From NCBI GenBank assembly GCA_903921605.1, contig CAIXQV010000446.1:1-10820 (forward strand): a stretch of 10,820 nt of DNA, written 5' to 3'. Shown one piece after another: positions 1 through 10,820 of this stretch. Under the pieces are notes generated by a model. The model searched no databases. It was not told the DNA's origin and was given only the letters and a program-made list of their open reading frames with translations. A program made the translations under genes and the position numbers. Positions within the stretch are counted from its first letter, which is position 1, and every line of letters starts with the position of its first letter. Source of the stretch: an uncultured Planctomycetaceae bacterium. GTDB taxonomy: Bacteria; Planctomycetota; Planctomycetia; Planctomycetales; Planctomycetaceae.

Positions 1-1
1 C

Positions 2-583
2 ATCAACAACATCAACTTTCAGAATCCTCGACCCGCACGCAAGTCATACAAGCAGATTCGTTATGTGGCGGAAGACTGTGCTGTAAAGGTGTTGGCCGCG
101 TCAAAGACACTCGAATACAACGACACGATTGCTTTGGATGCGCGGTATAGTGAACCTGTCATCACCTGGCGAAAGCCGACACCGGAACAAGCCAAATGGG
201 CTGAGGAAACGATAGCTGCGGGAGCCAAGGGTGACTCGGACCTGTCGTTCATCTATGCCCAGCGCGCGACAAAGTTGGCTGGATATCCCGAAAACACAAC
301 AATCCCTGTCCAGCTCCTGCGAATAGGAGATGTCTGTATCGGCACAATGCCGTGTGAAGTCTTCTGCGAGATCGGGCTTGAGTTTCGTGAAAAGTGTCCA
401 TCGAAGCATGCGTTTATGGTCGAACTTGCGCATGGATATTTTGGCTATTTGCCCACACCTCGTCAGATGCAACTGGGCGGATATGAAACCTGGATTGGAA
501 CAAACCGTCTTGAGCCGACTGCTTCGGAAAAACTTCTGGCGGAACTTCTGAAATTGGCAGAATCCTCAGGCGAAAAACCGTAA
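2..583 (+). CDS. Neutral/alkaline ceramidase-like protein, C-terminal part (5' end outside window)
   Basis: The frame is open from the window edge, so only the last 193 or so residues are present and the true start lies upstream. The peptide begins INNINFQNPRPARKSYKQ and ends with ELAHGYFGYLPTPRQ followed by GGYETWIGTNRLEP. This matches, from memory, the C-terminal half of the neutral/alkaline non-lysosomal ceramidase N-terminal-domain proteins that are abundant in Planctomycetes. The family's characterised members hydrolyse the amide bond of N-acyl sphingolipids; many planctomycete homologues are predicted exported hydrolases of unknown substrate, so the substrate here is not established. 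The catalytic N-terminal residues are outside the window. A short IGDVCIGTMPCEVFCEIG strand-rich segment precedes the C-terminal motif, as in the family. The gene is followed by a REP-like hairpin and no close downstream partner. Confidence 0.75.
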   Translation: MNNINFQNPRPARKSYKQIRYVAEDCAVKVLAASKTLEYNDTIALDARYSEPVITWRKPTPEQAKWAEETIAAGAKGDSDLSFIYAQRATKLAGYPENTTIPVQLLRIGDVCIGTMPCEVFCEIGLEFREKCPSKHAFMVELAHGYFGYLPTPRQMQLGGYETWIGTNRLEPTASEKLLAELLKLAESSGEKP

Positions 584-636
584 CAGAACATATCTGATAA
601 AACGACGTGCTCAGAAAAGAATTTGCCGTGTGACAC

Positions 637-738
637 AAAAGCCCTTCTCCCCCAATGGTTATGACCTTAAGTCGACGTCATTCGCCCTTTTCCCCCTCGG
701 GGGAGAAGGTGGCCGATAGGCCGGATGAGAGGGCTTTC
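637..738. repeat. REP-like palindromic element with nested hairpins
   Basis: The inner hairpin has an 11-bp stem, CCTTTTCCCCC (686-696) against GGGGGAGAAGG (699-709), with one G-T pair and a 2-nt loop. It is followed directly by GGCCGATAGGCC (711-722), a second small palindrome. An outer pair, AAAGCCCTTCTC (638-649) against GAGAGGGCTTT (727-737), is nearly complementary and encloses both. The string of C-rich arms, GGCCGATAGGCC and GGATGAGAGGG resembles a dispersed intergenic repeat seen in many bacterial genomes including planctomycetes. Lying just after a gene end, it may also act as a bidirectional terminator, although no T-run follows. Confidence 0.7.
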
Positions 739-828
739 GAGGATGGCAACATGGCGATGTCCAGCTAGCCTCTTGGAACTGCAAGTCGCTGATATCAAAC
801 ATTCGCTTCTTAACCGGGCGCCACACCT

Positions 829-1761
829 ATGCCTGCTCTGATTGAGCTGAACGATCTCTCGAAAGATTATGGCTCATTCCGAGCACTCTCGGGCGTCAGC
901 TTGCGGATTGATGAGGGCATCACGGGGCTGCTGGGGCCGAATGGTGCCGGGAAGAGTACGCTCATCAAGGTTCTGCTTGGACTGGTGAAGATTAACTCCG
1001 GGCATGGTCATGTGCTTGGTTTTCCGATCGGCCAGTCTGTTGCTCAGGTGCGAACTCAAATCGGATACATGCCGGAGGATGATTGCTATGTGCATGGTCT
1101 TTCGGGGATTGAATCCATTCAGGTGGCCGCTCGACTTTCAGGATTTTCCGAAACCGAAGCCTTACGCCGCGGGCACGAGATCCTGGATTTTTGTGGCATG
1201 GGACAGGAACGATATCGTCCTGTAGAAACGTACTCGACCGGCATGCGTCAGAAGTTACGTTTCGCGATGGCCATCGTGCATGATCCGAAGTTGTTGATTC
1301 TTGATGAACCGACTTCAGGACTGGATCCTGAAGAGCGAGAAGCCATGCTCAACCGTATTCGAATTCTCGCGCGAGAATTCCACAAGTCGGTGATTCTGTG
1401 TACTCACATTCTTCCCGATGTTCAGTCGGTTTGTGATCGTGTCGTGATCTTCGCTCGCGGTACGGTCAGAGTCAGCGATTCACTGGAAGCTCTTTGCCGA
1501 ATGCCGGATCCTTCCGTAACCGTGCAGGTGACTGGTGATTGTCAGAAACTGCTGGGAAGGCTCGAACAAAAGGGTTTGCGTGCAAAGATCCTTCTTCCGC
1601 AGCAGCTACAGATTATCGGTGATGCGGAGTCATTGAGCCCGACGCTTTGGGTGGCAGCGTCTGAGTCGGATTGCGTAATTCGCAGTGTGACGCCTTCAAA
1701 GAATTCACTCGAGCAGATTTTTCTGGACGCCGTGCGAGAGGTTCATCGTGCCGATTCATAA
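829..1761 (+). CDS. ABC transporter ATP-binding protein (ABC-2 type exporter)
   Basis: This 310-residue protein is the nucleotide-binding subunit of an ABC-2 exporter, hydrolysing ATP at the inner face of the membrane. Visible motifs in order: Walker A GPNGAGKST (residues 36-44), a Q-loop region IGYMPEDD in which the usual Gln is replaced by Glu83 as is common in ABC-2 type ATPases, signature STGMRQ (136-141, a variant of LSGGQ), Walker B LLILDEP (155-161) with catalytic Glu160, a D-loop SGLDP, and the H-loop His193 in CTHIL. The tail after residue 225 is a short C-terminal domain of the type found in drug or polysaccharide ABC-2 ATPases. The ATG at 829 gives a normal N-terminus; no strong Shine-Dalgarno sequence is visible. 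Its stop codon region overlaps the permease gene by 14 bases, so the two are translated as one unit. The substrate cannot be told. Confidence 0.93.
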   Translation: MPALIELNDLSKDYGSFRALSGVSLRIDEGITGLLGPNGAGKSTLIKVLLGLVKINSGHGHVLGFPIGQSVAQVRTQIGYMPEDDCYVHGLSGIESIQVAARLSGFSETEALRRGHEILDFCGMGQERYRPVETYSTGMRQKLRFAMAIVHDPKLLILDEPTSGLDPEEREAMLNRIRILAREFHKSVILCTHILPDVQSVCDRVVIFARGTVRVSDSLEALCRMPDPSVTVQVTGDCQKLLGRLEQKGLRAKILLPQQLQIIGDAESLSPTLWVAASESDCVIRSVTPSKNSLEQIFLDAVREVHRADS

Positions 1762-2716
1762 CCTGGGTTACCGTGAATGGAATGGAACGCTGCATTCACC
1801 GTGGACGCGATGGATGGTCGTTGCCGAAATCGGAATCCGCCGCGCGTGGCAGAGTGCGTGGCTGCGCCGCATGATGTTTTTTGCGTGGGTCCCTGGCGTT
1901 GTTATGGGGTTCATGATTTTTCTCTTTGAACAAGCAGAGAAAAATGATGGTGCCGCTCGCGATGTTCTGGGAAACCTGACGTCCATCCTGCTATTGGGCC
2001 ATGGAATGGGGAGTGACGCTGACGCATTGTTGCAGCATTTTCTTGAGTCAGAAGCGACTCCGGGCGAGCGGAGGCATGTTTTCTGGTCGTCACTCCTGTT
2101 GAATTTGTTCAGGCGATCTCAGCCGTTGATCCTGATCCCGATGGTCGGATTAATCGCGCCGCCGTTGATCTCTCAGGACTTTCGCTCTCGCGCGTTTTTG
2201 TTGTACTTTTCGCGGCCGCTGTCGAGGACTCAGTACATCCTTGGCAAGGCGATGACAGTGATTGCCTATCTGTCGATGATCACTTTGTTTCCGGCGGTGT
2301 GTTTGTTCGTCGTGGGAATTCTGTTGTCGCCGGATATCAGTGTGCTGAGTGCCACATGGGACTTGTTCTTCCGGATTGTGATTGTGTCAGCCGCCATCGT
2401 CGTGCCGTGTACGGCACTGTCGCTGATGTTGTCGTCCCTCACGACAGAATCTCGCTACGCCTCGTTCGGCTGGTTTGCGATCTGGATTCTGGGCTTTCTT
2501 ACCTATAGCATCGCCGTCCCGTTTTCTTCGCCGGGTGATGATTCTTTGATGCAGTGCGTTTCTTTGTTTCACATCTTCAGCGACGTGTCAGGTTGGCTCC
2601 TGGATCCTCGACTTGCCGTGCCCGGCATTGAAACTCGACTGGTGACGCTGGGGGTTCTGACGGCTGTTTCTTTGGCTGTTGTGTATCGACGCGTGTCGGC
2701 TCCCATGCAGATCTAG
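1748..2716 (+). CDS. ABC-2 type transporter permease
   Basis: This 322-residue membrane subunit partners the ATPase encoded just before it; the frames overlap by 14 bases, so the GTG start at 1748 is chosen. It yields MPIHNLGYREW, a start I recognise from planctomycete homologues. Six probable membrane helices lie near residues 42-60, 123-143, 168-193, 208-230, 239-258 and 297-313. A cytoplasmic segment LISQDFRSRAFLLYFSRPLS then YILGKA sits between helices 2 and 3 and is the conserved ABC-2 permease element. A long non-membrane segment (about 62-120) lies between helices 1 and 2. Together the pair would export an unknown substrate. The stop TAG at 2714-2716 is followed by GGACA...TGTCC (2719-2739) and a T-run at 2753-2758, a weak possible terminator. 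Confidence 0.9.
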   Translation: MPIHNLGYREWNGTLHSPWTRWMVVAEIGIRRAWQSAWLRRMMFFAWVPGVVMGFMIFLFEQAEKNDGAARDVLGNLTSILLLGHGMGSDADALLQHFLESEATPGERRHVFWSSLLLNLFRRSQPLILIPMVGLIAPPLISQDFRSRAFLLYFSRPLSRTQYILGKAMTVIAYLSMITLFPAVCLFVVGILLSPDISVLSATWDLFFRIVIVSAAIVVPCTALSLMLSSLTTESRYASFGWFAIWILGFLTYSIAVPFSSPGDDSLMQCVSLFHIFSDVSGWLLDPRLAVPGIETRLVTLGVLTAVSLAVVYRRVSAPMQI

Positions 2717-2802
2717 CTGGACAGCGTCCTGTTTGTCCCCCTCTCCCCCCGATTTTTTGCGGATGCAGCGTGGTGTGACATGGCAGCGTTCTTGCAAAAA
2801 AA

Positions 2803-2824
2803 TCAACGGCCCGCTGGCGGGCTA
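2803..2824 (+). repeat. Left terminal inverted repeat of the IS (IRL)
   Basis: The 22 bases begin TCAACGGCCC and end GCGGGCTA, and are the exact reverse complement of 4593-4614. The next base inward and the next base outward both mismatch, so 22 bp is the full length. Each repeat is itself palindromic: GCCCGC-TG-GCGGGC forms a 6-bp arm pair (2809-2822). Confidence 0.95.
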
Positions 2825-2880
2825 GGGATGGTCTTGGCTGGTAGGCGAAAATGCTTTAGATTTCCTGTATCCATTGGTCT

Positions 2881-4595
2881 ATGCAGGGAAGCGAAGCGAT
2901 GGGACATCGGTGGCCAGACGAAACGGAAATTGTGCGGGTATTTCTGGATGTGGAAGACCGCGAGTGTCGGCACTGCGGTCGGAAGATGCATGTCTGTGAT
3001 CATCGGCGGCATCGGATCGAGACGCTGGACGGACCACGGAAGATTGTCTGCCGCCTGGTGAAGTGTATCGACCGAGCGTGTCATGGCCATCACCGCACTG
3101 TCAGCCCGGAAGCCGAACTGACCATCTGTCTGCCTCGTTCGATCTTTGGCTGGGATGTGTTTTGCTGGATTGGTCACCGTCGGTTTTCACGGCACTGGTC
3201 GGTTCCTCAGATCCGGGGAGAGCTGCAGGACAGCTATCAGATTTGCGTCTCTGACGATGCCATTGAAGATGTGATCGCCAGATATCAGGCCATCGTAGCG
3301 GCTCGAGAACAGGACTCTGAGCGGCTGATCGAAATCTATCGCGACGTGGATGACGTCGTGTTGAGCATCGACGGACTCCAGCCAGAAAAGGGTCACGAGA
3401 CGCTTTATGTGGTGCGGGAACTGACACAGAAACGAGTGTGGTTTGGTGAGCCGCTGGTGAGTAGTTCGGCTCCGGAAGTCCGTCGGTTGATTGCTCGTGC
3501 GCGGGAATGGGCCGAGCGTCTTGGCAAACGAGTTCGGCTCTGGATGTCGGATAAGCAGGATGCCTTCCTGACCGGCATCGCGACCGAATTCCCTGACGTT
3601 CCGCATCGCTTCTGCCAGAACCATTTTCTGCGGGATGTGGCTCAGCCGATGCTGGAAGCAGACAGTCATGCGAAGGTTCGGATGCGGAGTAAAGTCCGTG
3701 GTTTACGGGCGATTGAGAAAGATCTGCTGGCGGCTCAGCGGGCTGAGGAGCTTCGCACGGAGGCAGACGACATCCCGAGGGAAAACATCACATCCGAAGA
3801 CATCGCCGCCGCCGTGATGGACAAGAATGCTCCTCCGACGCTGTCGCCTTCGAATACGGTTGTGCTTGATTATTGCACAGCGGTGAAGGGAATTTTGAAC
3901 GATGATCAGGGAGGTCCTCTGCATCCTCCCGGTCTTCGCATGGTCGATGCCTTACAGTCGGTGCGGGAATCCGTGGAACGCTGCCTTGCGACAAAAAAAG
4001 GGGCGCTGCGGAAAAGGCACTGAAACGTCTGGCGGGCAGCATCGATCGCGGTCTCGACTGCGTGGCTGAGGAACTGCCTGTGATTCGCGGGCATGTGGAA
4101 GTCGTGCGTTCCATTGCCGCGACTCTTGATCCGGCACAGGGCGACTGTGAGTCCCGCCGCGTTCGCTTCAGCGATTTGCATCGCACCTGTCAGGCCAGCA
4201 CGGATGAAGTGCGAAAGCAGATGGCGAAAGTCCTGCTGAGCTTTGAACCGGGTTTATTTTCAGGTGGCGATATCGCAGGACTGCCTCAGGATAATCTCGA
4301 TCTGGAGCGCTGGTTTCGTAACCCCAAAAACCACGAGCGCCGCATCCATGGACATCGTCATGCGGGTGTGCGCATCGTGCTGGAAGGGCCGTCCATGATT
4401 CACGCACTGGATCTCCACCAGCGTCACCCCGAACCGCTCACTTGCCGCGACCTGCTGGCCTTTCGCGACGCGACTCCTCACATCAGCCAACTCCAGTCGC
4501 TCCACCGCCGCAGTCTCATGCGCCGAGCACGCTCCACGAAGAAACGACCTCGACTTCTCGAAGAACTAGAATCCCGCTACAAAGACTCGTCTTAG
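2881..4595 (+). CDS. IS transposase, two overlapping frames joined by a -1 shift
   Basis: The first frame runs from ATG 2881 (or ATG 2899, giving MGHRWPDE, preceded by GGGAAG) to a TGA at 4021-4023. The second frame is open through 4020 and ends at 4595. A -1 slip at the A7 run 3993-3999 joins them into about 571 residues with sensible sequence on both sides (ATKK then RGAAEKALKRLAG). N-terminal cysteines C29, C32, C39, C62 and C67 suggest a zinc-binding domain. Candidate catalytic acids are D164 in LSIDGLQPEKG and D224 in LWMSDKQDA, followed by the C245-x2-H248 motif of RFCQNHF; the third acid is probably the Glu in DNLDLERWFR in the second frame, followed by KNHERRIHGH. Thus neither frame alone holds the full catalytic set. 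It may be programmed frameshifting or a decayed copy. Confidence 0.85.
3993..4000 (+). promoter_or_regulatory. A7G slippery sequence, candidate -1 programmed frameshift site
   Basis: The run AAAAAAAG is set in the upstream frame as A AAA AAA G, so two lysine codons can re-pair after slipping back one base. The downstream frame is open across the site and the upstream frame ends 21 bases later at TGA 4021-4023. This is the arrangement used by many insertion sequences. The only downstream pairing I found is GCTGC (4005-4009) with GCAGC (4036-4040), which is weak, and no clear Shine-Dalgarno-like enhancer precedes the run. Confidence 0.6.
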
Positions 4596-4614
4596 CCCGC
4601 CAGCGGGCCGTTGA
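4593..4614 (+). repeat. Right terminal inverted repeat of the IS (IRR)
   Basis: Exact inverted copy of 2803-2824, beginning TAGCCCGCCA and ending GCCGTTGA. Its first three bases are the transposase stop codon. It contains the same GCCCGC/GCGGGC palindrome. Confidence 0.95.
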
Positions 4615-4638
4615 AAACAAGCGGTTAATGATCTACTT

Positions 4639-4944
4639 ATGGCCGCGGCACACGTTGATCAGGATGGACTGCCACAAGCTTACAGCCACTGCCTTTCTGC
4701 CTTGATATCAATAGACAAGACTCATCCAGAAATCATCCCGTTGATTCGTCGATTCATGCATGTAGACAATTGGGGACTAATTTCAGACTCACTTGAAGCG
4801 CTGGTCGCAATTGATACAGAAGAGTCGTTACAGACAATGCAGGACATTCGGGATCGGTGGTACCTCGAGTTGAACAAGACCCAAAAGCGAATTGCTGACA
4901 AGTTTCTGGCTGAGTCCAATACAGCAAGAAGCGACGAACAATAA
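4639..4944 (+). CDS. Small helical, HEAT-like protein (cassette 1)
   Basis: This 101-residue protein is not one I can name. It is predicted to be almost all helical, with two helix pairs in a HEAT-like rhythm: YSHCLSALISI (15-25) / EIIPLIRRFM (31-40), then GLISDSLEALVAI (46-58) / ESLQTMQDIRDRW (62-74), and a charged C-terminal helix. There is no signal peptide or membrane segment, so it is probably cytoplasmic. The ATG at 4639 lacks a clear Shine-Dalgarno sequence. The frame is open upstream only as far as a TGA in the IS inverted repeat (4612-4614), so N-terminal sequence may have been lost to the IS insertion, although the start lies just inside a GTTAATG cassette edge and may be native. 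Its TAA stop (4942-4944) is in the left box of attC A, as is usual for cassette genes. Confidence 0.7.
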   Translation: MAAAHVDQDGLPQAYSHCLSALISIDKTHPEIIPLIRRFMHVDNWGLISDSLEALVAIDTEESLQTMQDIRDRWYLELNKTQKRIADKFLAESNTARSDEQ

Positions 4945-5022
4945 CATGCAGCCGAGTTGCCGAAGGGCTGCGCACACATTTGAGAATCAGTCGCGGCAGC
5001 CGGCTGATCTTGGTCGTTATGC
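4939..5022 (+). other. attC site A
   Basis: Left box CAATAAC (4939-4945) and right box GTTATGC (5016-5022). AGCCG (4950-4954) pairs with CGGCT (5001-5005); A4955 is left out of the helix; GTTGCCG (4956-4962) pairs with CGGCAGC (4994-5000) with one G-T pair. A 12-bp arm with one extrahelical base is the hallmark attC fold. The loop is 31 bases. TGATCTTGGTC leads into the right box. Confidence 0.88.
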
Positions 5023-5048
5023 AGAAAGGACGGCAATTGGGCACGAAT

Positions 5049-5453
5049 ATGATTGAACTCAACGATCATCAATTGCTTGCGTTGTGGTCGGCTGCTTGCG
5101 CTGAGCGGGTTCTTTCCCTGTTTGAAGCTGCTGCTCCAGGCGACGAACGGCCAAGAAAGGCAATTGAAGCGGCACGGGCATGGGTACGCGGTGACCTCAA
5201 AATGTCCGAGGCCCGCAAGATTGCTTTCGCGTCGCATGCTGCCGCAAGAGAAACACATATTGAATCCGCATGCCTTGCAGCTCGCGCTGCCGGACATGCC
5301 GCAGCCACGGCTCACGTTGCAAAACATTCTCCACATGCTGCGGCCTATGCCATCAAGGCCATTGCGGAGCAGTGCTCAGAAAGCAAACACGAAAAGTTAC
5401 TCGACGTTGAACGGGAATGGCAATTGCTTCAACTACCCGAGCACCTCAGGTAA
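5049..5453 (+). CDS. Imm-5-like putative immunity protein (cassette 2)
   Basis: This 134-residue protein matches, by eye, a widespread family annotated as putative immunity protein (Imm-5-like). The diagnostic run is LWSAACAERVLSLFE (12-26), then PGDERPRKAIEAARAW (30-45), and an alanine-rich helix with ARAAGHAAATAHVAKH (78-93) and AAAYAIKAI (97-105). Members are predicted all-helical cytoplasmic proteins proposed, from genome context, to protect against toxins in polymorphic-toxin systems; direct evidence is limited. ATG 5049 gives the family-like N-terminus MIELNDHQ. An in-frame ATG at 5019 lies within the right box of attC A and would add ten residues. No toxin gene adjoins it. It ends 13 bases before the left box of attC B. 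Confidence 0.82.
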   Translation: MIELNDHQLLALWSAACAERVLSLFEAAAPGDERPRKAIEAARAWVRGDLKMSEARKIAFASHAAARETHIESACLAARAAGHAAATAHVAKHSPHAAAYAIKAIAEQCSESKHEKLLDVEREWQLLQLPEHLR

Positions 5454-5463
5454 ACGCTAGAAT

Positions 5464-5551
5464 CTGTAAAAAAATGCACGCGACTTGCGGATCAAGCGTT
5501 TCCTGATAGCAAAGTCACTTGGCCGCAACAGCGTGATTTTAGCCGTTACCC
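5464..5551 (+). other. attC site B
   Basis: CACGC (5477-5481) pairs with GCGTG (5531-5535) and TTGCGG (5485-5490) pairs with CCGCAA (5523-5528), with GAC opposite CA between them, leaving one extra base on the left arm. The right box is GTTACCC (5545-5551), seven bases after TGAT. The left box is degenerate: TAAA (5467-5470) stands where TAAC is expected. Confidence 0.8.
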
Positions 5552-5557
5552 GGTTAA

Positions 5558-5971
5558 TTGAGTTTACTCCGCTTACGGAGATTTAGCATTCCATCCATCG
5601 CTTTCATCATACTCGCTGCCGGTGCCACCGCTGTCTGTTGGCTCGTTGGCGAAATCTTTGACAGGCGGTGGCTTCGCTGCATTGCTGGTCCCGCATTTTC
5701 GATTCTGTTGGCGATCATTTGTGTGATTGTGTCAACGGTTCATGTATCTTTCAGTGACTCGGTCACTTATTCCGGAGCCACTAAGGAGTTCATTGCAGTA
5801 ATTGTCGCTGCAATTGATCGTGGTGATGTTGACGCCGCTCACACGGAACTCCGAAAGTACGTCGAAGAGTCAATAGAAACGTATGAAGGCGGCGCATTTC
5901 TTCGGTGGTTGCGCGAACCGACCGAACGACTAGAAAATGGCCAGAAGTCGAGTCGTGAAAAGGGTAGATAG
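5558..5971 (+). CDS. Small membrane protein with two helices and a soluble tail (cassette 3)
   Basis: I do not recognise this family. From TTG 5558 it is 137 residues. Two membrane helices are clear: IPSIAFIILAAGATAVCWLV (11-30) and about residues 43-64 (GPAFSILLAIICVIVSTVHV). The remaining tail (70-137) is helical and charged (ATKEFIAVIVAAIDRGDVDAAHTEL), probably cytoplasmic. No ATG exists in frame at the front. The TTG starts six bases after the right box of attC B with no Shine-Dalgarno sequence. GGAG at 5577-5580 precedes an in-frame ATT at 5588, which would begin at the first membrane helix; a rare ATT start is therefore possible. It is followed, 36 bases on, by the attC C region. Confidence 0.6.
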   Translation: MSLLRLRRFSIPSIAFIILAAGATAVCWLVGEIFDRRWLRCIAGPAFSILLAIICVIVSTVHVSFSDSVTYSGATKEFIAVIVAAIDRGDVDAAHTELRKYVEESIETYEGGAFLRWLREPTERLENGQKSSREKGR

Positions 5972-6007
5972 CCGCCTATACTGTCGCCACAGCCATGTGC
6001 TGGCTAG

Positions 6008-6092
6008 CCACACGTTGCGCCTGTGCCGTGGAGCCGCGCGGTTTTGAAGTGGAAACGCGATCGCCGCGGCTCGGTGATCTTGGTCGATACAC
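6008..6092 (+). other. attC site C (degenerate)
   Basis: GAGCCGCG (6031-6038) is exactly complementary to CGCGGCTC (6065-6072). The right half GGCTCGGTGATCTTGGTC is closely similar to that of attC A, but the right box reads GATACAC (6086-6092), that is GTT changed to GAT. The left box is not clear; ACACGTT (6010-6016) stands near the expected place. The left boundary is approximate. Probably a decayed site. Confidence 0.55.
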
Positions 6093-6116
6093 AACAAGCA
6101 ACGAAGGAAGTTTAAC

Positions 6117-6599
6117 GTGCGATCAGCTTCCATGATGTTGCGGTTCAGTTTCCGGGTACTCCAGGGGTACCTTGTTGCAGGCGCCATTTGCGCTTTCAGC
6201 TTTTGCTGCCTTACGCAGTCAACGTATCACGCAATCAACATTCGAATCCCGGGCATCCAAACGGGGATTAGTGCGTTTCGCGGCCAATGGTCTCAGACCA
6301 TGTATTTTCGGTGGTTTGGTTGGGATTGCGAATTGCTGCATTCCACAAGCGCAGGACTCGACTGGACATTTTCCAAACTCCGAATGAAAGAGGGGTTTTA
6401 CTTTTCACATATCTCCACTTCACCGCAAAAGATTCGCTTTGCTTTTCCGCTCTGGGCCGCCGCAATACTCTTGTCTGCTTGGCCCATGGCAACGTTCATC
6501 CTCTATCTGAAACGCAGAATTACCCGACACGTCGCTGTCACCAAAATCGACTTCAAAGGGGATTGCGCTTCAGCTGGCACGGCTGTCAAAGCTGTGTAA
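6117..6599 (+). CDS. Small protein with N- and C-terminal membrane helices (cassette 4)
   Basis: This 160-residue protein has membrane helices at residues 15-33 (VLQGYLVAGAICAFSFC) and 109-131 (AFPLWAAAILLSAWPMATFIL), bracketing an aromatic-rich, mostly strand-like middle (45-105) that is probably outside the cytoplasmic membrane. GTG 6117 is chosen because AAGGAAG (6104-6110) stands six bases before it; ATG 6132 is an alternative. The PLW...P pattern of the second helix followed by a basic stretch recalls small planctomycete membrane proteins that end in a zinc-ribbon GYDLTGN motif, but that ribbon is absent here, so this resemblance is tentative. Its stop TAA (6597-6599) is in the left box of attC D, confirming it as a cassette gene. 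Confidence 0.68.
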   Translation: MRSASMMLRFSFRVLQGYLVAGAICAFSFCCLTQSTYHAINIRIPGIQTGISAFRGQWSQTMYFRWFGWDCELLHSTSAGLDWTFSKLRMKEGFYFSHISTSPQKIRFAFPLWAAAILLSAWPMATFILYLKRRITRHVAVTKIDFKGDCASAGTAVKAV

Positions 6600-6686
6600 C
6601 AATGCGATGCACGCCGAGTTGCGGTGGTTCGTTTCTCACACTGTTCAGTGTCACTCGCCGCAGCCCGGTAATCTTCGTGGTTATGT
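6594..6686 (+). other. attC site D
   Basis: Left box GTGTAAC (6594-6600), right box GTTATGT (6680-6686). CCGAGTTGCGG (6614-6624) pairs with CCGCAGCCCGG (6658-6668) at ten of eleven positions, A6617-C6665 being the mismatch and T6619-G6663 a wobble. The loop holds a further small hairpin, ACACTG (6637-6642) with CAGTGT (6646-6651). The spacer AATGCGATGC after the left box is of a type I recall from planctomycete attC sites. This is the best-formed site in the array. Confidence 0.88.
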
Positions 6687-6721
6687 CGTGAGGTCTTCTG
6701 CGATTTCAAATAGGAACCTGT

Positions 6722-7033
6722 ATGTCTGACAAGTCGTCTCAGCCGGAACACTCTTACACGATTGGCGGACCTCGCCCTGTTATCCCTTTCTTACTCGGGG
6801 CAGTGGCCGTTGGCTTGTTGTGGTTCGCATGTCATTCGATGACATCGAATGTTAAGAACGTCACCGTGACTTATATGTACGAGACGTCCCCCGGAACGGC
6901 ACATGGTAGTAAGGTGTATGCTGACTCGATTACTTTCTATCCCGGATACGTCGTCATGTCACACGGAAATGGTCACGGAAACGTCTTTTCAGTCGATCGA
7001 CTTCGAGACTTCTCATACAGTCCTGGAAAGTAG
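6722..7033 (+). CDS. Small single-helix membrane-anchored protein (cassette 5)
   Basis: This 103-residue protein is of unknown family. A short polar N-terminus (1-17) is followed by one membrane helix, PVIPFLLGAVAVGLLWFACH (19-38), then about 65 strand-rich residues with several Tyr, Gly and His (HGNGHGNVF at 81-89), probably facing outward. AGGAA (6712-6716) lies five bases before ATG 6722, a good ribosome-binding site. It begins 36 bases after the right box of attC D, but unlike its neighbours it ends more than 300 bases before the next attC site. Confidence 0.7.
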   Translation: MSDKSSQPEHSYTIGGPRPVIPFLLGAVAVGLLWFACHSMTSNVKNVTVTYMYETSPGTAHGSKVYADSITFYPGYVVMSHGNGHGNVFSVDRLRDFSYSPGK

Positions 7034-7344
7034 ACCATTCCTGCATAAAGCATAGGTTTGATGATCCACACATTTTTGAGTGCGATCGGTTCGTGTGGAA
7101 GTCAGTTGTGCCGTCGAAGAACAGATCGCGTCGTCGCGTTTCAATCTTGTCTCGCCATCCACCCTGCTGAAGAAACGTGAAAAATCAGCCGGACATCAGA
7201 AAACGGATCGTTAATCAGGAGATCAGCACGGACAACTCACTCGTGATTGGTCGGGCGCGCCTCCAGAGGGTGGGTGGTCATTGCTCGGCAAGGGGCGCTG
7301 CTCGGAACTCGCAGCCCGGCGTCAACTTGCAAACGCCACATAAT
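7034..7344 (+). other. Non-coding tail of cassette 5
   Basis: No convincing gene is seen in these 311 bases. A frame from GTG 7177 to 7386 runs into attC E and has no recognisable protein features. Structures present: CCACAC (7066-7071) complementary to GTGTGG (7093-7098); the 9-base GGGCGCGCC with its 8-bp palindrome GGCGCGCC (7255-7262); and CGCAGCCCGGCG (7310-7321), which resembles the right arm of an attC but lacks a following GTT box. The stretch may be a decayed cassette whose attC has been lost, or a non-coding RNA; neither is proven. Confidence 0.4.
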
Positions 7345-7428
7345 GATAAAATGCATCGGAGCTGCCGTGCTGCGTTTTTTACATAGTACAAATTTACGCG
7401 CCACAGCCCGGTGATTCTGACGTTATCC
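7345..7428 (+). other. attC site E
   Basis: CATCGG (7354-7359) pairs with CCGGTG (7408-7413) with one wobble, A7360 is extrahelical, and GCTG (7361-7364) pairs with CAGC (7404-7407). The right box is GTTATCC (7422-7428), six bases after TGAT. The left box is degenerate, GATAAA (7345-7350) where TAAC is expected. Confidence 0.82.
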
Positions 7429-7450
7429 GGTTGAAATCAAAGGACTCAAA

Positions 7451-8017
7451 ATGACGCGACATTTGTTTTTATCGCTTTGCCTAATCGTCTTGGCGCCTGC
7501 AGTATTTGCCCAGTCAAATGGGACCGCTGAAGTCCGCCCGGCAGCTCCGCCAAGGATGTTTTCGTACCTCGCAACTGGCATGCGCGTCGGGATCGCAAAC
7601 ATCGAAGGCACAGCAAGTGTTCGGCTCAGCGTCTACACCGAGGAGAACGAGACGGTCGTCGTGGCGACGAGCAAGCTCCCGAGTTTCACCCTGGCGGCGA
7701 CTGCCGCAAAGACGAATCTCGGCATTGAACGCGAACTAAAGGCGTACATGGAACAGAACGATCTGAAAGAAGCTTCTATGGCCCGCATTCGAATCCTTGG
7801 ACACTCATAGTCTGCCTTTGGTACAATCGACGCAATTGGCGATGATTACTTAATGATTAGCCTTGACGACGATGCGACCATCACACCCGAATTCACGCAA
7901 AAGCGCCGACGGATCATCCCGAAAACATCTGTCGGGTCGATTGACCTCGACGCAAGCCCTGTCCGGTTTATAACGGACCCTGATCGCCACCCGAGCAAAC
8001 CCAACGGAGAACAATAA
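7451..8017 (+). pseudogene. Secreted protein gene broken by one in-frame TAG (cassette 6)
   Basis: ATG 7451 follows AAAGGA by six bases. The first part is 119 residues with a clear signal peptide (LFLSLCLIVLAPAVFA, cut after residue 20) and ends at TAG 7808-7810. The same frame then continues, with protein-like sequence, for 68 more codons (SAFGTIDAIGDDYLMISLDD, then PEFTQKRRRIIPKTSVGS) to TAA 8015-8017, exactly in the left box of attC F where cassette genes here normally stop. The simplest reading is that the ancestral protein was about 188 residues and a point change made the TAG; readthrough, or restart at ATG 7853, is possible. The family is unknown. The mature protein would be exported and is rich in beta strand. 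Confidence 0.7.
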
Positions 8018-8095
8018 AAATGCACCCGAGTGGCCGTACTGGTTTTTTGAAATGGAGACTCGCTCACGGCCAGCGAGTCAGCTTCACCAATGGAC
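8013..8095 (+). other. attC site F (degenerate)
   Basis: TGGCCG (8031-8036) pairs with CGGCCA (8067-8072); the left box has TAAA for TAAC (8015-8018), and AATGCACCCGAG after it is like the other sites. At the position of the right box stands AATGGAC (8089-8095), which would be a perfect GTTGGAC if AA were GT changed back. An alternative end is GTTGCAT (8117-8123), using a second ACGGCCA copy at 8094-8100. A perfect 8-bp hairpin, GACTCGCT (8057-8064) with AGCGAGTC (8072-8079), overlaps the right arm. Confidence 0.5.
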
Positions 8096-8294
8096 GGCCA
8101 TCCACGCATTGCAAGCGTTGCATCGAAAAAGCGTGATGAGGATTGACCTTGTTGGCCCCTTACTGCTATTGAAGGACCAAGCCATTGATTTGCATGGCCA
8201 TGACCTTTAATCACATCCACAATAGGCGGAACGCCAGCCCGACACCGTTGGGACGAACTGTCGCTGAATAGTACTGTTGGTTAGAAATCAATCA

Positions 8295-8364
8295 ATCAAG
8301 AATATTGATCAGGAGCATCCTGCATGATTTTCATTTCGGGAAACATCTAAGACGAGAACGAGAT
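8295..8364 (+). promoter_or_regulatory. Structured leader of the acyltransferase gene
   Basis: ATCAA (8295-8299) and TTGAT (8305-8309) form one inverted repeat, following three tandem ATCA units (8287-8298). CAGGA (8310-8314) and TCCTG (8318-8322) form a second, which would bury the AGGAG Shine-Dalgarno sequence (8311-8315). That site serves a tiny ORF rather than the main start. The stretch 8096-8294 upstream has no gene I can support. Confidence 0.35.
8324..8350 (+). CDS. Possible eight-codon leader peptide
   Basis: ATG 8324 lies eight bases after AGGAG (8311-8315), the best ribosome-binding site upstream of the acyltransferase gene, and encodes only MIFISGNI before TAA 8348-8350. The main gene starts 14 bases later. 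It could couple or tune translation of the large gene, or the AGGAG could be chance; length alone gives no support. Confidence 0.25.
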   Translation: MIFISGNI

Positions 8365-10362
8365 ATGAAGTACTTGTCTTCCATAGATGGGTTAAGAGCG
8401 ATCGCAGTAATAGCAGTGATCTGGTTTCACATTTCTTCGAGGACATTGCCAGGCGGGTATCTTGGTGTCGATGTTTTCTTTGTGATATCTGGATACTTGA
8501 TCTATAGGATAATCGATTCCAATATAAAGAATAACACGTTTTCGATTGCCGAATTCATGACAAAGCGAGCACACAGGTTGCTTCCTGCTTTGTTTGTCAC
8601 TGTGATTGGGGTGCAGATTGTTTCAATTGTATTGATTCCTGGGTCAAACAAGTCGCTAACCGGAATGCATGGTGTTGCGGCGATATTCTCGAGTTCGAAT
8701 ATCTTTTTGTGGCTAAAAACGGGCGGTTACTGGGACACGGGTTCATCGTTTCTTCCGCTATTGCACACCTGGTCTTTGTCTTTGGAGACGCAGTTCTATG
8801 TGTTGATCGCGTTGGGTATGGTTGTAGTTCATAAATCAATCAGGTTCCGCACGGTGATTGTTTTCGCACTTGGGTCAATGTTGATTGGGTTGATTTTGAA
8901 TCAGTTTCACGCAAGGTCAAGTTTTTATCTTCTGCCATTTCGGATGTGGGAGTTGCTGCTTGGGTGTATTGTGGGGCATTTGGTTAATAATTCATATCTC
9001 AACGGCGTTTCTTGCTATGTCTCAAAGTGTTTAACCGTAACGGGCGTGGCGTTAATTGTGCTTGTGTGTTTGTTTGCTGGTAAGATGGACTCCGGTTTCT
9101 ACGTTTGTGAAATGCTTGCATGCCTGGGGACCGGAATATTTCTGCTGGTGGCGGAGGTTCAGGATTCTGCCGCGGGAGGAACAAACGGGCCGTCGAATGT
9201 TATTGTGAGGGGAATGTTTTATATTGGGCGAATTTCATATTCGTTGTATTTATGGCATTGGCCAGTTGTTGTGATTTTTAAGTATCTTAAGCCGGATCTC
9301 GATGTGATTGCAGTTGTGTTAGAGCTTAGCGTGATTCTTCTTCTGGGGATGTTATCGTATTATATTGTCGAGAGTCGATTTAGGATGCGATCGGGGAACC
9401 CGAGATGGATTGCACTAAGTTCGCTTGGAATAATTGCCTTCGGTTCATGCATTTTAACGATGGAGATCCATAGCTCATGGTTCTGGCGATCTTCTGTGGC
9501 CAGCACAATCGACCTTCCCTGGAATGGTAATGTGGGATCGGAGTTCGAGGCGACTAAGGCCATTCTGAACAAGAAAAATGCACTCATCGTTGTAGATGGG
9601 GGGCCATCAGCGACCGAAATTTCATTTTCAGGATCGTCGCATGCGCGTACCTTAATTTCTTCGTTTCTGGATGTGTCAAGAAATGAAGGCTGGACATTAA
9701 AGTCCCTTGCGTCAAGTGGCGTTGGCATGACGACAGATAATGTCAAGACGCGACCATTTGCTGAGGTTCTGAACATTAATAGATTGCAGATAATAGGAGC
9801 TGAACCGCCTGATATTGTAGTTGTCGCTGGTAAATGGTCTGATGAATTAGACGAGGAAAAGTTTAATCGTCTTTGTGACCAGATTGAAAGTATGTGTGAA
9901 ATTGTGCCTGATGTTATTCTTTGCCTGCAAGTGCCGGAGATCAGTTGTGATTTACCTCTTCCGGCTGCAATCACATCAAATTATCTGAATTGTATGGATG
10001 ATAATCTTTTGCCTGTGACGGATGAGTGGAAATATTGGCATGGGAGAATGATGTCAGAGTTAATTTCAATTAAGCGACCAAATTTTCACCTCGTGGATTT
10101 GTCAGTGCTTTTTTATGAAACAAAAAGCAATAAAAGTAATTTTGCTCCCAGTGGGATTGTTGTTTATTCTGATAATGACCATCTAAACGCATACGGATCT
10201 GCGCTGGTTGCGAACAGGATTCTGATACCATGTATCAAGTACATTCTCAATCCCAGTGAAGAGTATGATTATTATGGAGTAATTGGCCGGCAGGGCGATG
10301 CACCGATGCCGCCGACTGATGCTGTTCCTGCTTCGCAATCGTCTGTTCCGCCGGGCCAATGA
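8365..10362 (+). CDS. OafA/YrhL-type membrane acyltransferase with C-terminal SGNH domain (cassette 7)
   Basis: The 665-residue protein is predicted to transfer acyl, often acetyl, groups to surface glycans. Residues 1-370 form the multi-helix acyltransferase-3 domain: SSIDGLRAIAV at the start, the R11-x10-H22 motif, FFVISGYLI (38-46), KRAHRLLPAL (67-76), HTWSLSLETQFY (134-145, with Thr142 where Glu is usual) and YSLYLWHWPV (292-301). Residues 405-630 form an SGNH hydrolase-like domain: block I reads GSSHA (423-427, Ser for the usual Asp of GDSHA, Ser425 kept), and DNDHLN (603-608) supplies the Asp/His pair. The tail after 640 is Pro-rich. ATG 8365 is chosen over TTG 8305 because MKYLSSIDGLRA is family-like. 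The gene is visibly AT-richer than the ABC genes, a sign of transfer. The acceptor is unknown. Confidence 0.93.
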   Translation: MKYLSSIDGLRAIAVIAVIWFHISSRTLPGGYLGVDVFFVISGYLIYRIIDSNIKNNTFSIAEFMTKRAHRLLPALFVTVIGVQIVSIVLIPGSNKSLTGMHGVAAIFSSSNIFLWLKTGGYWDTGSSFLPLLHTWSLSLETQFYVLIALGMVVVHKSIRFRTVIVFALGSMLIGLILNQFHARSSFYLLPFRMWELLLGCIVGHLVNNSYLNGVSCYVSKCLTVTGVALIVLVCLFAGKMDSGFYVCEMLACLGTGIFLLVAEVQDSAAGGTNGPSNVIVRGMFYIGRISYSLYLWHWPVVVIFKYLKPDLDVIAVVLELSVILLLGMLSYYIVESRFRMRSGNPRWIALSSLGIIAFGSCILTMEIHSSWFWRSSVASTIDLPWNGNVGSEFEATKAILNKKNALIVVDGGPSATEISFSGSSHARTLISSFLDVSRNEGWTLKSLASSGVGMTTDNVKTRPFAEVLNINRLQIIGAEPPDIVVVAGKWSDELDEEKFNRLCDQIESMCEIVPDVILCLQVPEISCDLPLPAAITSNYLNCMDDNLLPVTDEWKYWHGRMMSELISIKRPNFHLVDLSVLFYETKSNKSNFAPSGIVVYSDNDHLNAYGSALVANRILIPCIKYILNPSEEYDYYGVIGRQGDAPMPPTDAVPASQSSVPPGQ

Positions 10363-10369
10363 TCTTTAG

Positions 10370-10387
10370 ACGTGATTTGGTTCACGT
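10370..10387 (+). terminator. Hairpin just after the acyltransferase gene
   Basis: ACGTGA (10370-10375) and TCACGT (10382-10387) form a perfect 6-bp stem with a 6-nt loop, beginning eight bases after the stop codon. No run of T follows, so termination is only possible, not shown. The interval 10388-10492 has no supported gene. Confidence 0.35.
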
Positions 10388-10492
10388 TGCTCCAGCGAGA
10401 TCGCCGCGATTATCTATCCTGCTGCCGGGGATTGGATCGCATATCGCGAAAAGCTCGTCCCTGACTCAAAGCACTAAGTCAAGCGAAACTCC

Positions 10493-10584
10493 GCATAGCA
10501 ATGCAATGCCCGGCGAGTTGGCGTCGGTGCCAAACTCACTTTACCAAGTCGCTTGCGCCAACCGGGTGATTGCCATTGTTCGCA
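10493..10584 (+). other. attC site G (degenerate)
   Basis: CCCGG (10509-10513) pairs with CCGGG (10562-10566) and TTGGCG (10518-10523) pairs with CGCCAA (10556-10561); CGAG (10514-10517) is unpaired on the left. TGAT plus seven bases leads to GTTCGCA (10578-10584), a poor right box. Left-box TAGC (10496-10499) is followed by AATGCAATGC, the expected spacer type, so TAAC to TAGC is a likely change. Confidence 0.6.
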
Positions 10585-10820
10585 TTTCGTAGATTCCGCC
10601 GCGTTGGAGAATCGCATTCATCGCAATGCGGTTTGATCGTGTTGGCTGCGACTGGTTGCTGAACGCAGGGCTCGGCAGAATGAAATCGCGGAATTGTCCA
10701 CAGATGAACACGGATGAGCACAGATGAATCGCAGGTCGCAGGCGGGCTTTGAACGCGGCTTGATTTGAATCCGCAGTGCATGACGTCTTGACGGCGGACA
10801 TTCAATGCTCTTGCCATGGG
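10585..10820 (+). other. Region after the last attC site, no supported gene
   Basis: Frames on the minus strand span this stretch but translate the tandem repeat into SVLIRVHLWT, which is repeat-derived, and have no domain features. GCATT (10612-10616) and AATGC (10623-10627) form a small palindrome. Apart from this and the tandem repeat I see nothing here. Further cassettes could follow beyond the window. Confidence 0.5.
10699..10728 (+). repeat. Three tandem 10-bp units (CACAGATGAA type)
   Basis: The units are CACAGATGAA, CACGGATGAG and CACAGATGAA, head to tail; the first and third are identical. Strings of ACAGATGAACACGGATG type recur as dispersed intergenic repeats in many environmental bacterial genomes, as I recall; function unknown. 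Confidence 0.8.

Follow-up and report, generated by a model that had tools for sequence, protein, structure and literature searches.

A Seven-Site attC Array in an Uncultured Planctomycete, Probably the Distal Part of a Sedentary Chromosomal Integron Whose Head Is Missing at an Insertion Sequence

Introduction

In the established integron mechanism, the bottom strand of the attC recombination site is used, cleavage takes place at G^TT, and cassettes move as circles. Here we describe an array of seven attC sites and their cassettes in a 10,820-nucleotide stretch of DNA (hereafter, the window) from an uncultured Planctomycetaceae bacterium (GenBank assembly GCA_903921605.1, contig CAIXQV010000446.1, positions 1 to 10,820, forward strand). 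Such an array is of a known kind, since planctomycete attC sites are already in print: according to the passages of these papers available to us, attC covariance models exist for 11 taxa, Planctomycetes included (Ghaly et al. 2021, PMC8352920; also PMC9176274), and intI has been reported in Planctomycetes (PMC2426708). Passages available in the same way define clusters of attC sites lacking an integrase as CALIN (IntegronFinder 2.0, PMC9024848) and state that transposases often target cassette arrays (PMC11089894).

As far as those passages describe them, the sedentary chromosomal integrons of Planctomycetes (PMC8352920, PMC2426708) resemble the array of the window in attC architecture and in having same-strand cassettes mostly without known function. 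In contrast to these, the window yielded neither integrase nor attI, and its first cassette is cut by an insertion sequence (IS). We consider it highly probable that the window represents the distal part of a sedentary chromosomal integron from a planctomycete close to the metagenome-assembled genome (MAG) LacPavin_0920_WC12_MAG_54_15 (the sister genome, G001), and that the head of this integron was removed or lost at the IS. To the known picture, the present analysis adds cassette boundaries defined by where homology ends, a chromosomal place that the sister seems to share but fills with other cassettes, and an explanation for the missing head.

Seven attC Sites in the Window

As read from the sequence, the locus comprises seven attC sites, one whole cassette block shared with a relative, and an array end apparently shared with the sister in place but not in content. 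The seven sites had been proposed in an earlier note made from the letters of this DNA. The whole window was searched, filters off, with R1, a covariance model built from six attC sites of G001 (five on contig C68 and one on C7, both of which also carry integron integrases) and holding no window sequence. R1 recovered all seven proposed sites, each on the plus strand, with 22.9–55.8 bits, while the eighth-best match in the window had an E value of 1.6; sites A, B, D and E, on which the note had staked its reading, were found together with C, F and G. The highest score belonged to attC A (4934..5022; 55.8 bits, E 6.6e-14; GTT at 5016), followed by attC D (6595..6686; 49.2 bits, E 4.8e-12; GTT at 6680), attC E (7339..7428; 47.7 bits, E 1.3e-11; GTT at 7422), the last site of the array, attC G (10494..10584; 39.3 bits, E 3.1e-9; GTT at 10578), and attC B (5465..5551; 27.5 bits, E 6.3e-6; GTT at 5545). 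Two sites are decayed, namely attC C (6003..6092; 23.4 bits, E 9.4e-5), where GATA replaces GTTA, and attC F (8010..8095; 22.9 bits, E 1.3e-4), which has no GTT. The cleavage triplet is thus kept at five of the seven sites, and the GTTA said to be common to all right halves stands in A, B, D and E, being GTTC in G, GATA in C and absent from F.

The seeds of R1 were picked by patterns drawn from the window sites and from a reading of the G001 locus L025, so that they were chosen for likeness, and the structure of the model was written by hand. In these six seeds, the arms pair in 93.8% of cells, against 25–43% after sliding, and 11 of 22 pairs change on both sides, which none of 500 shuffles reached. 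In an alignment of the seven window sites that was itself fitted to the R1 model, the arms pair in 85.9% of cells, against 25–54% after sliding, with both-side changes at 12 of 22 pairs (0 of 500 shuffles). None of the 14 loci L001–L014 gave an R1 match at E ≤ 1 under default filters; with filters off, a single match (15.7 bits, E 0.06) came from L060, a part of G001 that has no array, and it lies well under the weakest window site. An Rfam scan of the window returned no attC-like family, its sole match at E ≤ 1 being DicF (E 0.47), below the cut-off. When the sites were folded as single-stranded DNA, a preference for the bottom strand appeared at B and C (3–4 kcal/mol), but not at the other five, where the difference was about 1 kcal/mol or less.

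The attC type of the window is the same as that found beside IntI in G001, and positions 6598-6673 (attC D) share 87% identity with the site that opens the C68 array of G001. Matches of 77–83% to attC E lie in genomes G083 and G133, and parts of 6013-6089 (attC C) have matches of 77–89% in other genomes of the family, at least one of which (G140 C380) is an R1 site. R1 sites at E ≤ 1e-4 occur in 131 of 170 genomes of the family, a count that may be too low because just 25 candidates were scored per genome, under stricter filters. The window offers a well-bounded example from a planctomycete lineage, represented by MAGs, in which this type of attC array is common. A detail of the type seen in attC A (4934-5022) and D (6595-6686) is the extra unpaired base of the left arm, a G on the plus strand and a C on the folded strand; in textbook attC sites the extra unpaired left-arm base is the opposite one.

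Cassette Boundaries in Related Genomes

Cassette 2 recurs as a block in genome G121. Homology runs from 5018 to 5547 of the window (536 aligned columns, 86.8% DNA identity), and identity drops outside these limits, which fall within the triplet of attC A (5016-5018) and that of attC B (5545-5547). The cassette 2 copy in G121 is followed by an attC site, the counterpart of attC B, which scores 43.9 bits with R1. Elsewhere in the array, the end of cassette 1 with attC A (4875-5021, 147 bases) has a counterpart of 95.9% identity in G021, at a place (L075) with five sites, and the cassette 7 gene is 81% identical at the DNA level to a gene in G134 that precedes further attC sites and other open reading frames (ORFs). 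The G134 array is itself interrupted, at L117 630-1807, by apparent transposase frames of another IS. A DNA search of the 170 family genomes with 5560-8005 gave matches in 19 of them; all 26 matches listed lie on attC C, D or E, and none of those listed falls inside a cassette gene beyond its overlap with these sites. Exchange at attC boundaries is thus seen for cassette 2 (G121) and for the right end of the array (G001; see below), and not for cassettes 3, 5 and 6.

Seven units of one gene and one attC each, all on the plus strand, could also be read as an ordinary operon with dispersed palindromic repeats, resembling repetitive extragenic palindromic elements, between its genes. The single strand shared by every unit speaks for such an operon; against it, homology blocks begin or end at the triplets, the same class of repeat stands beside IntI in G001, and neighbours differ among genomes, so that we regard this alternative as scarcely tenable. 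A fixed operon of the ordinary kind was ruled out by the homology blocks limited at triplets and by the differing neighbours in relatives. Because the cassette 2 block recurs in G121 and the corresponding array end of G001 holds other cassettes, we read the genes of the window as integron cassettes rather than as a fixed operon. The cassette array proposed in the earlier note is thereby upheld, both by the R1 sites and by the relatives examined, which display no fixed gene order. In such an array, each attC would be cleaved at G^TT by IntI acting on the folded bottom strand, and the enzyme would excise and insert the cassette genes as circles.

Right End of the Array and the Sister Genome

To the right of the array, positions 10579..10820 are 76% identical to G001 C53:263268-263413 (E 1.8e-22). 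The first base of this homology, 10577, immediately precedes the GTT of attC G, and little aligns further left. Other matches to the right flank (three in G001 C73, one in G006) cover only a repeat-like stretch, while the part of the flank outside the repeat has a single matching place in G001. There, on C53, the matching flank comes directly after an array in which eight sites are clear and the last, a ninth, is weak (17.2 bits). Despite this similar flank from the last-site triplet onwards, no match to cassettes 1–7 was found in the five G001 loci compared (L023, L024, L025, L061 and L064), the C53 array (L061) included. The array of the window thus looks like it ends at what is apparently the same chromosomal place as in G001, with different cassettes, which suggests that cassettes have turned over at one place between two close relatives, the break of homology falling at the cleavage triplet. 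About 1.1 kb separates the start of the C53 array from the end of its contig, and the arrays on C7 and C68 run toward the ends of theirs; for this reason, the C53 array may form part of either integron of G001.

Left Junction at the IS

An IS occupies 2803..4614 on the plus strand, with perfect 22-bp inverted ends (2803-2824 and 4593-4614), and its right end falls inside the gene of cassette 1 (4615..5016, plus strand). What is left of this gene is its C-terminal 109 codons (4615-4941), 76% identical at the amino acid level to residues 103-211 of a 211-residue relative in G137. DNA homology to G137 starts at 4614, in frame and mid-way in the gene, and the first 102 codons are missing; for the first 104 residues of the relative, no window match falls below E 2.3. 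In the first eight genomes searched, no cassette 1 protein was found (0 of 8).

On the other side of the IS, 2713-2800 has counterparts at two places in G001 (88% and 78%); one of them is on C101, whose sequence continues differently from the point where the IS begins. With flanks so unlike each other, the two IS ends abut different target sequences, which is compatible with two IS copies having recombined, with a deletion next to the IS or with a join made in assembly. Judged by these sequence comparisons, the ATP-binding cassette (ABC) transporter operon and the IS are not native neighbours of the array. The earlier note had them occupying the position of the integrase; they do stand left of cassette 1, but, since the IS cuts the cassette 1 gene, they are not simply standing there. 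With an IS end inside this gene, either a rearrangement severed the head of the array or the head dropped out when the assembly was joined. The head, that is, intI, attI, earlier cassettes and the first half of cassette 1, would have been removed by recombination between IS copies or by an IS-linked deletion; alternatively, it would be missing because the assembly joined across the IS.

The latter option deserves attention. The join of the ABC operon, the IS and the array might be an artefact bringing together two places of one genome, or two organisms, that share the IS, in which case the array would be part of an integron elsewhere. Several observations favour this: the left flank of the IS matches sequence present twice in G001 while the right flank lies mid-gene in a cassette, as if two insertions had been merged; IS pieces in genome G003 end at contig edges; and identity to G001 differs between the left arm and the right flank (95% and 76%; see below). 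Moreover, the available text of the IntegronFinder 2.0 paper (PMC9024848) states that draft genomes tend to inflate CALIN counts. On the other hand, IS-linked recombination would give an identical picture, and an artefact would bear on the left junction only, not on the array. We find an assembly join quite possible, if somewhat less probable than its absence, and it is compatible with our preferred reading of the window as the distal part of a chromosomal integron. In either case, the locus is a concrete example of an integrase-less array arising, or merely appearing, through an IS end in a cassette or an assembly join, and it calls for caution with CALIN counts in metagenomes.

Related IS copies adjoin A-runs. 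It is tempting to suppose that this IS family inserts at A-runs and that planctomycete integrons lose their heads time and again as its copies recombine, the distal cassettes, with the orphan immunity gene of cassette 2 (see below) among them, being frozen as an integrase-less stock that IntI encoded elsewhere in the genome could remobilise; we hold so broad a scenario to be rather improbable.

The transposase of the IS is read from one frame at 2881-4023 and another at 4062-4595, and the change of frame falls at an A-run of seven bases (3993-3999). In the G003 copy (L086), the run has six A and the frame also changes there, in the other direction; the break may be a lesion, a sequencing error or programmed frameshifting at the A7 run. 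The first frame scored 29.3 bits against the curated IS66 cut-off of 180, and the transposase stayed below the IS66, IS256 and MULE cut-offs, so that the IS is assigned to no family. As for the ABC region, the first 619 bases of the window and 794-2716 are 95% identical to G001 contig L001. The operon continues in G001 with a second ABC pair, and a short element with inverted ends (L001 6101-6170) lies just after the permease stop in the sister's operon, where the window diverges.

Integrase and Status of the Array

No integrase was found by tblastn with one G001 IntI over the whole 10.8-kb window (best E 2.0), in agreement with the earlier note; scans with family libraries covered chosen ORFs. 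Neither intI nor attI, which would stand beside the array in a complete integron, was found within the window. As in CALIN, in the available wording of the definition (PMC9024848), there are at least two attC sites, and no integrase was found inside the window; this result covers 10.8 kb, the left part of which ends at the IS junction. To call the array CALIN-like in this window, as the earlier note did, is therefore fair, with the refinement that the IS end beheads cassette 1.

Integron integrases above the NCBI curated cut-off (TIGR02249) were found in four of eight relatives sharing the ABC permease; matches below this cut-off say little, as all 14 control genomes gave them. G001 has two such integrases, on C7 and C68. 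On C68, intI lies on the minus strand and is followed by attC sites running outward on the plus strand; C7 has the mirrored layout and reaches its end after a cassette ORF and a single site. Adjoining a G001 integrase, we also observed a 3103-residue open frame of repetitive sequence (L023 2752-12063).

One might suppose that the organism has lost its integrase altogether, leaving the array as a relic and a true CALIN. The two sites without GTT, the truncated first cassette and the in-frame TAG of cassette 6 would agree with such a loss. Yet the sister possesses two IntI above the curated cut-off, GTT is kept at five of seven sites, and cassette content differs between the sisters right up to the triplet of attC G; we deem a complete loss unlikely.

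Returning to the distal part of a chromosomal integron as our preferred reading, a number of observations weigh against it. Neither integrase nor attI came to light in the window. Scores are just 23–28 bits at sites B, C and F, two of which (C and F) have no GTT. R1 detects no attC left of cassette 2 in G121, where the left triplet is GCT, and among the three Imm5-like loci of the family an R1 site is present at one, that of G121. Homology between cassette 7 and G134 starts at the G134 contig end and, instead of reaching its limit at an attC, breaks off 25 bases past the stop codon. The genes of cassettes 3, 5 and 6 have no relatives in the searches made (a DNA search in 170 genomes and family libraries only). 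With R1, neither the intI contig of G005 (L027, 18 kb) nor the 2-kb piece of G003 (L018) gave a site, and the intI contig of G006 gave just one, of 35.5 bits. Finally, the left arm is 95% identical to G001 and the right flank only 76%.

Cassettes and Their Genes

The earlier description of seven same-strand ORF units alternating with the sites holds, except that unit 1 retains just the 3' half of a gene. Of the stop codons said to fall in the left boxes, the TAA of unit 4 does lie in attC D; the frame of unit 6, however, meets a TAG before reaching the TAA in the box of F. Neither plasmid nor phage collections gave a match for 4615-10600, and PADLOC matched none of the seven cassette products at E ≤ 0.01. 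A promoter scan gave four sites, against a mean of 7.0 in shuffles. Lying far from attI, the cassettes are probably a silent stock, which agrees with the two decayed sites, the truncated first gene and the interrupted sixth gene.

Cassette 2 (5017..5545, plus strand) encodes a putative immunity protein of the Imm5 type (ATG at 5049, stop ending at 5453). Searched from codon 2, its product matched PF21805 with E 5.7e-41 and 139.8 bits, against a Pfam cut-off of 25, so that an immunity role is predicted. PF21805 occurs in three of the 170 family genomes. This immunity-type gene (5049-5453) is carried as a cassette in both the window and G121, and no toxin gene was seen beside it in the window.

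The next four cassettes, all on the plus strand, are less familiar. Cassette 3 (5546..6086) has a 137-residue ORF (5558-5971) with a TTG start and, by eye, hydrophobic stretches; it matched no family above cut-off. Cassette 4 (6087..6680) contains a 160-residue ORF (6117-6599) of no assigned family with its TAA stop inside attC D; its product has one relative, P0005, 98% identical, from the ENA (longest contig 746 bases). In cassette 5 (6681..7422), a 103-residue ORF (6722-7033), likewise of no assigned family, is followed by about 300 bases up to attC E with only a 69-residue open frame. Cassette 6 (7423..8089) holds an ORF (7451-7810) with a signal-like start by eye; after the in-frame TAG at 7808-7810, the frame is open again to a TAA (8014-8016) inside attC F.

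Finally, cassette 7 (8090..10578, plus strand) encodes a predicted membrane protein of the acyltransferase-3/SGNH type, which starts at 8305 (TTG) or 8365 (ATG) and runs to 10362, with matches to PF01757 (E 6.6e-27) and PF19040 (E 2.7e-15).

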